DNA of 56,410 bases from a virus. The notes under the pieces were generated by a model. The model searched no databases. It worked only from the letters and a program-made list of their open reading frames with translations, and had not been told where the DNA came from. Shown here piece after piece: positions 44,107 to 49,044 of this stretch. The stretch covers positions 1 through 56,410 of IMG/VR virus record IMGVR_UViG_3300022592_000005, one strand, 5' to 3'. Positions within the stretch are counted from its first letter, which is position 1. Every line of letters starts with the position of its first letter. Position numbers and translations under genes: made by a program.

Positions 44107-44163
44107 AACAGGTTCAACTTTTCTCTAATTATGAAGTAGAATTAAATTTGCTGAACTGAACCT
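44107..44163 (-). ncRNA. Structured element copy 1 (Ro-like gene leader)
   Basis: In minus-strand order: AGGTTCA, then GTTCAGCAAA, an AU-rich loop, and TGAACCT followed by GTT. The 7-bp closing stem differs from the other copies in both strands. It ends about 20 bases before the Ro-like ATG. Confidence 0.75.
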
Positions 44164-44172
44164 AAATCAAAC

Positions 44173-44287
44173 AACAGGATAGTTTCCTACTTTTTGTTTT
44201 AAGTGAGAACTCGAAACTCACTTCGTCAGGCGAACCCGACCTAGTAGTGGTCTTTCGACCAAGTTAGTTGTTTGCAGAACCTATCCT
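44173..44287 (-). ncRNA. Structured element copy 2 (long form, Ro-like gene leader)
   Basis: Closing stem AGGATAG/CTATCCT with the conserved GTTCTGCAAA on its 5' side. Inside lie a GGTC-GAAA-GACC tetraloop hairpin, GTCGGG-TTCG-CCTGAC, and an AAGTGAG/CTCACTT hairpin. It begins about 15 bases after the predicted +1 of the promoter at 44309. Confidence 0.78.
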
Positions 44288-44308
44288 TTTATCAACCTTA
44301 CAACCTAA

Positions 44309-44337
44309 AGTATACTCCTAAATGTCTTGCATGTCAA
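44309..44337 (-). promoter_or_regulatory. Promoter TTGACA-17-TATACT
   Basis: Drives the leader elements and the Ro-like gene. Confidence 0.85.
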
Positions 44338-44822
44338 GCAACTTTTCTTTCTGATTCTGCAAGAATATGTTTCATTCTGTCAGCGCAGTAAGAAGCTGCA
44401 AAGGCATTTGGCTTAACCATAGGAATAACATTACACATACCACGAATGTAGCCAACTGCTTCGTTGATGACACATGAACTGCCATGCATTTCGTTAGGGT
44501 TGATGTCCAAGTGGATTTCAACATCTCTATCTTCAAGCACGTCATGTAACTTGTGATACAACTCTGCAATTTTATATACTTCATTCATTAAACGCATACG
44601 TGGACGGTTTTTCTTTTGATCCCAGTCACGTTCTCTTTGAACTTCACCGAAAATCTTACAACCATGTTTACCGTCAATATGCACTACAATGGCAAGAGTA
44701 TAGTCAGCGTACCAATCGGATCCAATTAACATACGCTCAGAATCTGCACCAATGTAGATTTTTGTTTCGGGACTCTGTGCTTCGATGAACGCTTTTACTT
44801 CATCGATGTTAATAGTGCGCAT
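44334..44822 (-). CDS. DUF458 RNase H-like protein
   Basis: 162 aa from ATG at 44822. IYIGADSERM, then HLDINPNEMHGSSCVINEAVGYIRG and KPNAFAASYCADR, are DUF458 motifs; the Asp/Glu/His residues fit an RNase H-like fold. Its function is unproven. Located between tRNA-Gly(GCC) and the Ro-like gene, so an RNA-directed role is conceivable. Confidence 0.75.
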   Translation of the reverse strand: MRTINIDEVKAFIEAQSPETKIYIGADSERMLIGSDWYADYTLAIVVHIDGKHGCKIFGEVQRERDWDQKKNRPRMRLMNEVYKIAELYHKLHDVLEDRDVEIHLDINPNEMHGSSCVINEAVGYIRGMCNVIPMVKPNAFAASYCADRMKHILAESERKVA

Positions 44823-44850
44823 GATACATCTCCATTCTTTTTGAAAATTT

Positions 44851-44925
44851 TGGAGCAGGATATCGGGTTCGAACCGATGACATTCTCGTTGGCAACGAGA
44901 CATTCTACCACTGAATTAATCCTGC
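44851..44925 (-). tRNA. tRNA-Gly (GCC)
   Basis: Acceptor GCAGGAT/ATCCTGC, loop TTGCCAA, encoded CCA. Second Gly isoacceptor in the cluster. Confidence 0.92.
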
Positions 44926-44927
44926 AT

Positions 44928-45001
44928 TGGCATCCCGCCAGAGACTCGAACTCCGACCAAGGGTTTTGGAGACCCACGTGCTGCCATTACACCAGCGAGA
45001 T
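44928..45001 (-). tRNA. tRNA-Trp (CCA)
   Basis: Acceptor ATCTCGC/GCGGGAT, loop CTCCAAA, discriminator G and encoded CCA. Two bases from tRNA-Gly(GCC). Confidence 0.9.
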
Positions 45002-45005
45002 ATTT

Positions 45006-45278
45006 TTACTTTGATTCGTTCAAGAGTTGCTTATTCTCTGAGAGAGTTTGCTCTTGAAGTTTCTTTTGATATTCTTCATTTGTCAGCGAATGCCAACCCA
45101 CACAATCACCAGTTGGGCTACGACCACATCCACATGTTCCAGTTCTTTGTTCACTCATAGTCTTTTCCTTTTTACCAAAAATAATATCCCAACGATTGTC
45201 AAATGTTTCTTTGTCAACCGAGAGTGGTCTTGGTTTATCACCCTTACCACCTGTTCCACCATTCCAATGTTCAGCCAT
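45006..45278 (-). CDS. Two-part small protein with CGCGRSPTG metal-like motif
   Basis: 90 aa. The first ~38 residues (GGKGDKPRPLSVDKETFDNR) match one common phage microprotein; the rest (CGCGRSPTGDCVGWHSLTNE) matches another that is usually separate, with a Cys-x-Cys...Cys...His site near the CDGSH pattern. Probably a natural fusion joined at an internal Met. Confidence 0.6.
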   Translation of the reverse strand: MAEHWNGGTGGKGDKPRPLSVDKETFDNRWDIIFGKKEKTMSEQRTGTCGCGRSPTGDCVGWHSLTNEEYQKKLQEQTLSENKQLLNESK

Positions 45279-45405
45279 TTAATCTTTCCCTCATGTCTTT
45301 TTTCTGGGCACTTCTTTCAGATTTCCAGAAAACACGTTTCCATTCTTTCAAATGTTTCCACCACTGTGGAGATTTAGTCAAATTACCTTGCTTAACATTA
45401 GCCAT
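45271..45405 (-). CDS. Small basic Trp-rich protein
   Basis: 44 aa from ATG at 45405. KSPQWWKHLKEWKRVFWKSE is a pattern seen in short phage proteins. 8-base overlap with the downstream gene (ATGGCTGA). Confidence 0.58.
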   Translation of the reverse strand: MANVKQGNLTKSPQWWKHLKEWKRVFWKSERSAQKKDMRERLNG

Positions 45406-45423
45406 AATATTCTCCACAAAACT

Positions 45424-45499
45424 TGGTGCCCATTTACGGATTCGAACCGCAGACCTCCTCATTACTAATGAGATGCTCTACCAACTGAGCTAAATGGGC
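45424..45499 (-). tRNA. tRNA-Thr (AGU)
   Basis: Acceptor GCCCATT/AATGGGC, stem TCTCA/TGAGG, loop TTAGTAA giving AGU, encoded CCA. A34 anticodons other than Arg-ACG are unusual in bacteria; reads ACU unless modified. Confidence 0.85.
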
Positions 45500-45509
45500 A
45501 TGAAATTAC

Positions 45510-47708: not shown

Positions 47709-47784
47709 TGGCGTCCCGTGAGAGATTCGAACTCCCGACCTGTGGTGTAGAAGACCATTGCTCTATCCACTGAGCTAACGGGAC
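47709..47784 (-). tRNA. tRNA-Arg (UCU)
   Basis: Acceptor GTCCCGT, loop CTTCTAC, discriminator G, encoded CCA. Confidence 0.93.
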
Positions 47785-47790
47785 AGTGTT

Positions 47791-47875
47791 TGGTGCGACT
47801 GGCGAGACTTGAACTCGCATGTCTTGCGACGGCAGATTTTAAGTCTGCTATGTATACCGATTCCATCACAGTCGC
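47791..47875 (-). tRNA. tRNA-Leu (UAA)
   Basis: Loop CTTAAAA, long variable arm, acceptor GCGACTG, encoded CCA. Confidence 0.93.
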
Positions 47876-47948
47876 ATGGCTCGGGTCTCTCCTCGACTGT
47901 CACGCATGTCGCTTACGTTTGCGGTAGGTAGCGAACCTACATTAGAAC
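47876..47948 (-). other. 73-nt spacer with possible hairpins
   Basis: Between tRNA-Ser(GCU) and tRNA-Leu(UAA). GTAGG/CCTAC and CGAC/GTCG stems are possible. No ORF or tRNA. Longer and more GC-rich than other spacers. Confidence 0.4.
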
Positions 47949-48038
47949 TGGCGGAGAGTCAGGGAGTTGAACCCTGTGACCATATTCCTACGGTCTACAG
48001 TTTAGCAAACTGCTGCATTACCGTCCTGCCCACTCTCC
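47949..48038 (-). tRNA. tRNA-Ser (GCU)
   Basis: Loop TTGCTAA, long variable arm, acceptor GGAGAGT, encoded CCA. Directly follows the phosphoesterase stop codon. Confidence 0.92.
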
Positions 48039-48605
48039 TTAAACATTACCGTTCTTGAATCCCACAGTACCACCCTGCTCTTGAATTTTCTTCAAGACGT
48101 CTTCAAACAAGATGGGTCTGAAGTCTGTTTGTTCGACACATACAGAGAAGTACTGTGGGTCAATGGTAGTAACACCATACTGGTCAGTTTTCATAACACG
48201 ATTGCTATGTAAGTGACCATGAATGTTACAACCAAAACGATACAACTGTTGCGGATGTAAAGGTATGTGACTCAAGATCAAACCATTCATCACATGGTAA
48301 CTACGTATATCTCTAAAGTGTTCCGTGTATTCTTCTAATCTGAAGATATCATGGTTACCTTTGATCAAAACTTTGTCACCATTCAAACGACGTAAAATTT
48401 TCAATGCTTTACGGTTGATAACTACATCACCAAGATGATAAACTTTATCAGTTGGCTTCACAGTTTCGTTCCACATTTTAACCATCGCTTCATCCATTTC
48501 ATCTGGATCAGTCCATGGTCTTAACTTTTCACCATCGTCACGTGTGAATTTGCATACACCAACATGACCAAAGTGCGTATCACTTGTTAAAAATACACTT
48601 GGCAT
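48039..48605 (-). CDS. Metallophosphoesterase (YfcE/MJ0936-like small type)
   Basis: 188 aa from ATG at 48605 (AAGGAG 6 bases before). FLTSDTHFGHVGVC, YHLGDVVIN, LIKGNHDIFR, LSHIPLHPQ and NIHGHLHSN are the five calcineurin-type motifs. Inserted in the tRNA cluster, ending exactly where tRNA-Ser(GCU) begins. Confidence 0.87.
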   Translation of the reverse strand: MPSVFLTSDTHFGHVGVCKFTRDDGEKLRPWTDPDEMDEAMVKMWNETVKPTDKVYHLGDVVINRKALKILRRLNGDKVLIKGNHDIFRLEEYTEHFRDIRSYHVMNGLILSHIPLHPQQLYRFGCNIHGHLHSNRVMKTDQYGVTTIDPQYFSVCVEQTDFRPILFEDVLKKIQEQGGTVGFKNGNV

Positions 48606-48626
48606 ATACATCTCCTTATAATAAAT

Positions 48627-48716
48627 TGGCGGAAGTGGTAGGATTTGAACCCACGGACCCTTTCAGATCGCCTGTTTTCAAGACAGGTGCCATAAACCAG
48701 ACTCGACCACACTTCC
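48627..48716 (-). tRNA. tRNA-Ser (UGA)
   Basis: Loop CTTGAAA, long variable arm, acceptor GGAAGTG, encoded CCA. Confidence 0.93.
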
Positions 48717-48722
48717 ATAACT

Positions 48723-48798
48723 TGGTACCCCATGAAGGAATTGAACCTCCACCTCTGCGTTCGTAGCACAGTATGATTATCCATTTCACCAATGGGGC
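48723..48798 (-). tRNA. tRNA-Arg (ACG)
   Basis: Loop CTACGAA, acceptor GCCCCAT, encoded CCA; A34 is normally converted to inosine. Confidence 0.92.
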
Positions 48799-48805
48799 AT
48801 TAACT

Positions 48806-48879
48806 TGGTACCTCGTGACAGAATCGAACTGCCGTAATCGCCGTGTAAGGACGAAGTTCTACCATTAAACTAACGAGGC
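48806..48879 (-). tRNA. tRNA-Val (UAC)
   Basis: Loop CTTACAC, acceptor GCCTCGT/ACGAGGT, encoded CCA. Confidence 0.9.
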
Positions 48880-48887
48880 ATAAAACT

Positions 48888-48966
48888 TGGCTCCGCATTT
48901 GAGGATCGAACTCAACTAACCACTGATTAACAGTCAGGTCCATGCACCTTGCTCGGATTTTGCGGA
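48888..48966 (-). tRNA. tRNA-Asn (GUU), second copy
   Basis: Loop CTGTTAA, acceptor TCCGCAA, T-arm TTGAG/CTCAA, discriminator G, encoded CCA. Diverged from the copy at 45801. Confidence 0.85.
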
Positions 48967-48975
48967 ATAGAAAAC

Positions 48976-49044
48976 AACAGGATAGTTTTGACGAACATGT
49001 CAATTTAACAGATTGGTGTTCTTTTGAGTTGCAGAACCTATCCT
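48976..49044 (-). ncRNA. Structured element copy 5
   Basis: AGGATAG, GTTCTGCAA, a loop with a GACATGTTCGTC hairpin, CTATCCT, GTT on the minus strand. Begins 5 bases after the CCA of tRNA-Ala. Confidence 0.74.

Follow-up and report, generated by a model that had tools for sequence, protein, structure and literature searches.

Ro60 binds Y RNAs through their terminal stem, and in Deinococcus radiodurans such an RNA tethers the protein Rsr to PNPase (PMC8394870, PMC7790460). A decoy role of the tRNA-like domain of Y RNAs against anticodon nucleases has been proposed as well (PMC8394870, PMC7790460), and Y RNAs near Ro60 have already been reported in bacteria and phages (Chen 2014, 10.1261/rna.047241.114). 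Here we examined the 56,410-nucleotide (nt) IMG/VR virus record IMGVR_UViG_3300022592_000005, referred to as the window, in which five copies of a structured RNA element are present within positions 44107-49044, all on the minus strand. Two of them (44107 and 44173) lie directly upstream of a gene encoding a DUF2828 protein with a predicted Ro60/TROVE fold. It is highly probable that these elements are the Y RNAs of the phage's own DUF2828-type Ro60-like protein, with a new recognition module and a payload that mimics tRNA.

All five copies share one layout, which reads AGGNNNN, xTKCWGCAA, a loop, N'N'N'N'CCT and GTT, and they were found at the places where a preliminary description of the window had put them, with the motif following the 5′ strand and GTT following the 3′ strand in each. 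The first copy (44107-44163; AGGTTCA/TGAACCT) is a short one in the 5′ untranslated region (UTR) of the Ro60-like gene, where its 3′ end stands 19 nt from the ATG and right ahead of the ribosome-binding site. The second (44173-44287; AGGATAG/CTATCCT) is long, as its 89-nt loop forms a three-hairpin domain, the final hairpin of which, GTGAG-TTTCGAGTT-CTCAC, is T-loop-like and is kept in the gene-proximal copies of relatives. The remaining three are short copies within a tRNA array, and they begin 4-5 nt past a CCA end, as had been noted before: 46258-46312 (AGGATGA/TCATCCT) lies 4 nt past the CCA of a tRNA-Met, 46978-47036 (AGGATTC/GAATCCT) lies 5 nt past that of a tRNA-Asp, and 48976-49044 (AGGATAG/CTATCCT) is preceded by a degenerate tRNA-Ala-like gene that was missed by ARAGORN and read by eye. 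The short copies are 55-69 nt in length, with loops of 28-43 nt and a YNACAGCAA-like motif.

A covariance model built from other genomes, here called R1, ranked exactly these five copies as its top five matches in the window, with E-values from 7e-12 to 7e-5 (3.9e-9, 7e-5, 2.2e-9, 6.9e-12 and 4.4e-7 in order of position), while the sixth-best match had an E-value of 0.04; a chance origin of the five copies is thus excluded. At gathering score, an Rfam scan of the window detected only tRNA and transfer-messenger RNA (tmRNA), and none of these matches was at the elements. An IUPAC pattern scan allowing 3 mismatches was uninformative (146 matches vs 134 expected), and a short BLAST search of one element against phages returned noise only.

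To follow the stem in relatives, 80 viral loci were fetched purely by the similarity of their neighbouring protein, and elements were picked by the invariant letters, pairing not being required. The four variable pairs were all formed in 87 of the 89 distinct elements, compared with a mean of 12.0 and a maximum of 23 fully paired elements when 3′ strands were permuted among elements (2,000 permutations). A broader alignment of 51 diverse copies showed two-sided changes at all seven pairs, and its covariation score of 0.83 fell to 0.10 or less in slid controls; this set had been chosen to pair, and it is the permutation test that is unbiased. The compensatory change of the variable stem bases that the preliminary description had pointed out is therefore borne out, with significance across homologues given by the permutation test in place of R-scape. 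The same description had proposed that an RNA fold bearing an invariant asymmetric motif is under selection; the compensatory changes seen in hundreds of homologues lend this strong support, and a covariance model recovers the elements in related phages with no Rfam family at gathering score. The view that no described family shows this pattern holds for the sequence pattern; it does not hold for the kind of RNA, as the function would be that of a bacterial or phage Y RNA.

In the 51-copy set, the invariant positions are the C, G, C and A of CAGCAA together with the GT after the 3′ strand, and CAGCAA and GT are the only conserved single-stranded positions. The proposed recognition module consists of a 7-base-pair (bp) stem, NNNCAGCAA on its 5′ side and GT directly after its 3′ strand. 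A pseudoknot of the CAA in the motif with the GTT of the 3′ tail was considered and dropped, as the positions past GT vary with no matching change in the invariant CAA. Beyond what had been described, the gene downstream is Ro60-like by its predicted fold, the element is tied to this gene across phage families and some bacteria, and the loop holds a tRNA-mimic payload.

The neighbouring gene (42669-44087, minus strand) encodes a 472-amino-acid protein with DUF2828 and DUF7788 (von Willebrand factor A, vWA) domains, a predicted RNA-binding protein whose relatives occur in at least 681 phage records, some of them annotated as RNA-binding or 'Ro sixty-related'. A protein-profile search of PDB sequences gave just a weak TROVE match (E 0.25), and a comparison of folds was therefore needed. 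The AlphaFold2 model was confident (predicted local distance difference test, pLDDT, 87.9; predicted template modelling score, pTM, 0.88), and its best PDB matches were the Ro autoantigen, the TROVE domain and D. radiodurans Rsr (Foldseek E 4.8e-9 to 1.4e-7). In the VIA comparison, the Ro autoantigen structures 1YVP/1YVR reached Z 21.0 with a root-mean-square deviation of 4.0 over 403-409 residues, and the Ro60 of phage phiLo (9L5Y) reached Z 15.2; PDB chains matched via the vWA domain alone begin at Z 11. Since the best structural matches are of the Ro autoantigen, TROVE and Rsr kind, the product is predicted with high confidence to be Ro60-like by fold, with a helical-repeat ring closed by the vWA domain. 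A PADLOC scan gave no match.

The element was found within 430 nt upstream of the gene in 58 of 72 homologous loci, as opposed to 3 of 1,244 control windows that matched the tested upstream windows in strand and size. The 14 missed loci carry variants that can be recognised by eye: their loops are longer, or they read CCGCAA, or CTGA in place of CTGT. Pattern scans of IMG/VR at the DNA level, blind to the protein, found the gene in nearby DNA at 77 of 129 loci; of 38 further records, 17 had it too, among them almost every one of 40 kb or more. The scan records with no gene were mostly short fragments, apart from two of 39.7 kb and 71 kb. R1 was also run on 13 whole named DUF2828 phages, five of which had contributed to the model and eight had not. 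It matched seven of these eight (Cronobacter S13, E. coli momo, KVP40, Campylobacter Los1, Stenotrophomonas DLP6, Ochrobactrum OC and Sinorhizobium M12; E 1.7e-9 to 0.003) and gave no match in T4, phiKZ, S-PM2 and phiW-14, four phages in which the gene was shown to be absent.

When 15 large gene-bearing IMG/VR records were scanned with the same model, 64 elements were detected, at least one in each record; some of these records had contributed to the model. Bacterial DUF2828 loci, some of which may be prophages, also carry the element: R1 matches, some of them training sequences, are located just upstream of the gene in Roseiflexaceae and in a Clostridia metagenome-assembled genome, and versions with ACAGCAA or TCAGCAC were seen by eye in the Novimethylophilus and Brachyspira loci. 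Around the gene, the elements are on the strand of the gene. In KVP40 (L250, just before position 3001), a lone 5′-half motif, TTTTACAGCAA, with no obvious 3′ strand was observed directly ahead of the ribosome-binding site of the Ro60-like gene, the full KVP40 element being about 7 kb upstream.

The loops of the elements resemble parts of tRNA. A hairpin of at least 4 pairs around YTNNNRA is present in 109 of 243 distinct short loops, compared with 2.3 in shuffled ones, and a T-arm in 65 of 131 long loops, compared with 0.2, these counts covering related sequences and thus events that are not independent. The best hairpin has a 7-nt CTNNNAA loop in 93 short loops, nearly always on a 5-bp stem, and the inner stem of the short loops covaries (26 of 57 distinct cases fully paired vs 3.5 permuted). 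This hairpin is an anticodon arm with U33 and A37-A38. The mimicked anticodon triplets include UGU, UUU, GUU, GGA, UCU and GCA; in 10 of 11 triplet types position 36 is U or A, and A37 A38 follow in every case, which is also the pattern of t6A37 and i6A37 tRNAs.

Many of the long loops with a T-arm read T-arm, closed acceptor stem and D-arm, which is the order of the tRNA-like core of the bacterial Y RNA YrlA. Some have an anticodon arm placed in front, which gives a complete circularly permuted tRNA; such whole permuted tRNAs (anticodon-like arm, T-arm, closed acceptor and D-arm) were identified in the related loci at L006:1823-1940, L020:579-698, L025:331-449, L051:5365-5484, L058:6099-6214 and L247:4533-4663. 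In two further loci (L072:7697-7818 and L074:1197-1318) a complete, unpermuted tRNA gene lies inside a Y RNA-like element. The short copies of the window are less canonical, with an anticodon-arm-like CAAT-CTGTTAA-ATTG in the loop of the 48976 copy and an inner hairpin of a 5-bp stem and a 7-nt loop in the 46978 copy. A tRNA-like domain was seen in many relatives, and the long copy of the window has just the T-loop-like hairpin within its three-hairpin domain.

In about half of the loci, the window's 44107 copy included, the 3′ end of the stem is 13-23 nt before the ATG and abuts the ribosome-binding site. This placement would suit protein-binding hairpins that act in the 5′ UTR only, controlling the downstream translation with no free RNA being made. 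However, numerous copies are located among tRNA genes and are kilobases away from a start codon of this kind, and the tRNA mimics in the loops would be superfluous for translational control, which makes a purely cis-regulatory role quite improbable. Cis-regulation could additionally be true for the proximal copy. As the 44107 copy ends only 19 nt before the ATG, translational feedback is plausible, and through this copy the Ro60-like protein may limit its own translation.

The tRNA arrays offer another reading, in which the elements would be processing signals or small ribozymes that follow tRNAs and serve to trim their 3′ ends, and HDV-like (hepatitis delta virus-like) theta ribozymes are reported for phage tRNAs. 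Three copies in the window begin just past a tRNA, and 35 of 90 elements begin 5-12 nt past a called tRNA (at 5-6 nt in 30 of these). Most copies, however, do not follow a tRNA; there are copies upstream of the Ro60-like gene, in mycobacteriophages also downstream, and in bacterial loci. No self-cleaving ribozyme family of Rfam 15 was detected at gathering score, and the conservation of single-stranded positions is limited to CAGCAA and GT; we consider a role in tRNA processing very improbable.

It is hardly to be expected, either, that the elements are armless or decaying tRNAs, with the 7-bp stem as a former acceptor stem and the inner hairpin as a leftover anticodon arm. The length of the outer stem, the 5-bp stem and 7-nt CTNNNAA loop of many short copies, the location in tRNA arrays and the U or A at position 36 in 10 of 11 triplets would all agree with such an origin. 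Nevertheless, CCA and the discriminator are absent, CAGCAA and GT are invariant, many copies hold other payloads, and in L072 and L074 a complete tRNA stands inside the element; moreover, the tie to the Ro60-like gene extends to genomes and copies outside tRNA arrays. It is possible that the payload was derived from tRNAs even if the elements are bound by the Ro60-like protein. A DNA-level element, such as a mobile hairpin or recombination site whose palindrome covaries for DNA reasons, is barely credible, for although covariation alone cannot separate RNA from DNA hairpins and several copies occur per genome, the elements share the strand of the gene and have an asymmetric single-stranded motif, their loops differ from copy to copy, no insertion signature or flanking repeats were seen, and they co-occur with an RNA-binding protein.

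Several observations count against the elements being Y RNAs of the DUF2828-type protein. The kinship with Ro60 rests on a predicted fold at a sequence identity of 12-18%, and Pfam gives only DUF7788 and DUF2828 for the 472-amino-acid protein, with no PF05731 (TROVE) match. The YrlA gathering score was not reached at any element (none in the window; best relative 47.8 of 69 bits), and the YrlA consensus has no CAGCAA, so that the Ro-binding module is unlike the one known from characterised bacterial Y RNAs. Of the long loops, 62 of 131 lack a recognisable tRNA mimic, as do 90 of 185 short ones, and three of the four short copies in the window have none in strict form. The one DUF2828 phage that R1 did not match, Enterococcus PEf771, has elements that were found by eye and by YrlA only.

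If the elements are Y RNAs of this protein, the closing module of the 7-bp stem, NNNCAGCAA and GT would be the handle recognised by the Ro60 ring. The handle would stay constant while the tRNA-like display varies, from an anticodon arm in short copies to a T-arm, acceptor and D-arm, or a whole and often permuted tRNA, in long ones. Most likely, the ribonucleoprotein (RNP) would either display the tRNA mimics so as to gate or tether an enzyme that handles tRNAs, much as the YrlA RNA links PNPase to Rsr, or use them as decoys against tRNA-cutting host defences. The copies in the tRNA array were presumably cut out of tRNA transcripts. The long copy may have a transcript of its own, since a sigma-70-like promoter sequence (44309-44337, minus strand; TTGACA-17-TATACT), with 11 of 12 consensus matches only, ends about 21 nt ahead of it.

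Were this reading true, it would define an RNA partner for a Ro60-like protein present in at least 681 phage records and would provide a sequence rule for finding such RNAs, Y RNAs being predicted wherever DUF2828 proteins occur. Phages that field mimics of anticodon arms and permuted tRNAs on a Ro60 handle would also fit an arms race over tRNA-cutting defences.

Other features of the window, all on the minus strand unless another locus is named, were also observed. The Ro60-like gene is adjoined by a gene for an RNase H-like PF04308 protein (44334-44819), a pairing also present in KVP40, and directly downstream of it and of a tRNA-Gly lies a free-standing second vWA protein (41904-42533). Near the Ro60-like gene are adjoining NAMPT-like and cytidylyltransferase/NUDIX genes (39176-41555), which form a nicotinamide adenine dinucleotide (NAD+) salvage pair. 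Directly past a Y RNA-like element is a tRNA with a CUA anticodon (46880-46956; called Pyl by ARAGORN), likely an amber suppressor, and inside the tRNA array there is a promoter-like site with a perfect 12/12 match to TTGACA-17-TATAAT (47426-47454). A circularly permuted tmRNA is present at 18860-19248 (Rfam tmRNA_permuted 145.8 bits, beta_tmRNA 118.9 bits), and a related permuted tmRNA at L206:5964-6484.

A second set of phages, 347 records mostly from phages of actinobacteria, encodes a classical TROVE protein. R1 found nothing at E≤1 in 13 classical TROVE loci, and a YrlA-like RNA was detected near the Ro gene in 4 of 5 such phage loci by the Rfam YrlA model, below its cut-off. Because R1 is silent at the 13 loci and several of these have a YrlA-like RNA instead, phages have two Ro60 systems with different RNA handles, and the NNNCAGCAA/GT handle is specific to the DUF2828 class. 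A candidate seen in one of the classical TROVE loci (L259:459-631) was rejected as chance, being on the opposite strand to the gene, with no GT, and unseen by R1.

Among known systems, YrlA (RF02553) with Rsr is likewise encoded beside a Ro60-fold protein, and its RNA ends form a closing stem. Its payload of T-arm, closed acceptor and D-arm is shared by the phage elements at L015:1608, L020:2262 and in L254, where matches to the YrlA core reach E 9.6e-8, and, as for YrlA, there are several copies per locus with a tRNA-like domain in only some of them. On the other hand, the phage closing module is NNNCAGCAA/GT rather than the AUGC.../AcUuG stem of YrlA, the partner is DUF2828/DUF7788 rather than PF05731, and, unlike in YrlA, the cargo of short copies is an anticodon arm and that of some long copies an entire permuted tRNA. 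Vertebrate Y RNAs (RF00019) are also bound by Ro60 and closed by a terminal stem, but theirs is longer with a bulged Ro site, and the Rfam scan gave no RF00019 match in the window. The elements are thus of a known kind, the Y RNA, and of an undescribed family: one with this handle, a DUF2828 partner and a cargo of anticodon arms and permuted tRNAs is described neither in Rfam nor in the searchable literature.

A comparable arrangement is found in the Listeria phage CKA15, whose Rsr-like protein (CKA15_055) was found in purified particles. Three noncoding regions with strong transcription lie on the strand of its gene, no more than 2 kb upstream, and the authors name Y RNAs as one possibility for them (PMC12282133). 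The likeness lies in a Ro60-like protein downstream of abundant noncoding transcripts, its DUF2828 type being suggested by relatives in phage A511; unlike for the elements here, no motif, structure or family is defined for the putative Y RNAs in the passages covered. In the related A511, R1 detects three elements immediately ahead of the Ro60-like gene. With one exception, the 54 matching Listeria phage records share at least 80% of this stretch. Also upstream of this gene is a strong ROOL RNA match below gathering score (L248:1507-2058, record positions 26196-26747; 87.5 bits, E 2.3e-16). Since its position coincides with that of the most abundant noncoding region of CKA15 (26,236-26,727; PMC12282133), this region seems to be a ROOL RNA and not a Y RNA, if A511 is collinear.

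The Class I RNAs of dictyostelids, none of which was found outside Dictyostelia by their authors, are 42-65 nt in length and have an end-joining stem with compensatory changes, a conserved CCUUACAGCAA directly after the 5′ strand and a variable remainder (PMC7919456). The phage elements follow this plan, with an end-joining stem, a CCUUACAGCAA-like motif beside the 5′ strand and short copies of similar make (55-69 nt); the Class I RNAs differ in being eukaryotic, in having no reported tRNA mimic and in that their known binder is an RNA recognition motif (RRM) protein. A first scan of the window gave a weak RF01414 match on one copy, which was therefore taken as a hypothesis for testing in other loci. 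At E≤10, two further locus sets (44.6 and 47.4 kb) gave seven and three RF01414 matches, all ten on elements and all spanning the whole model, where about 0.002 would be expected by chance per set, because the E-values count all 4,227 families. The gathering score was not reached in the two sets (best 30.1 of 41.5 bits), and in place of Dictyostelia and a DUSE (Dictyostelium upstream sequence element) promoter the setting is viral, with a tRNA array and a promoter of sigma-70-like sequence, no scan having been aimed at DUSE.

Dictyostelium and plants carry DUF2828 proteins. The likeness could possibly have arisen by convergence on a short motif. We tentatively suggest, as a possibility we would not yet favour, that the Class I RNAs and the phage and bacterial RNAs belong together in a single ancient family of Y RNAs that serve a second Ro60 branch (DUF2828/DUF7788), in which Class I RNAs and undiscovered plant counterparts would form Ro60-type RNPs and the phage payload would be anticodon-arm and whole-tRNA decoys. 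This would give a first candidate identity to the dictyostelid Class I RNAs, the function of which has been obscure for two decades.

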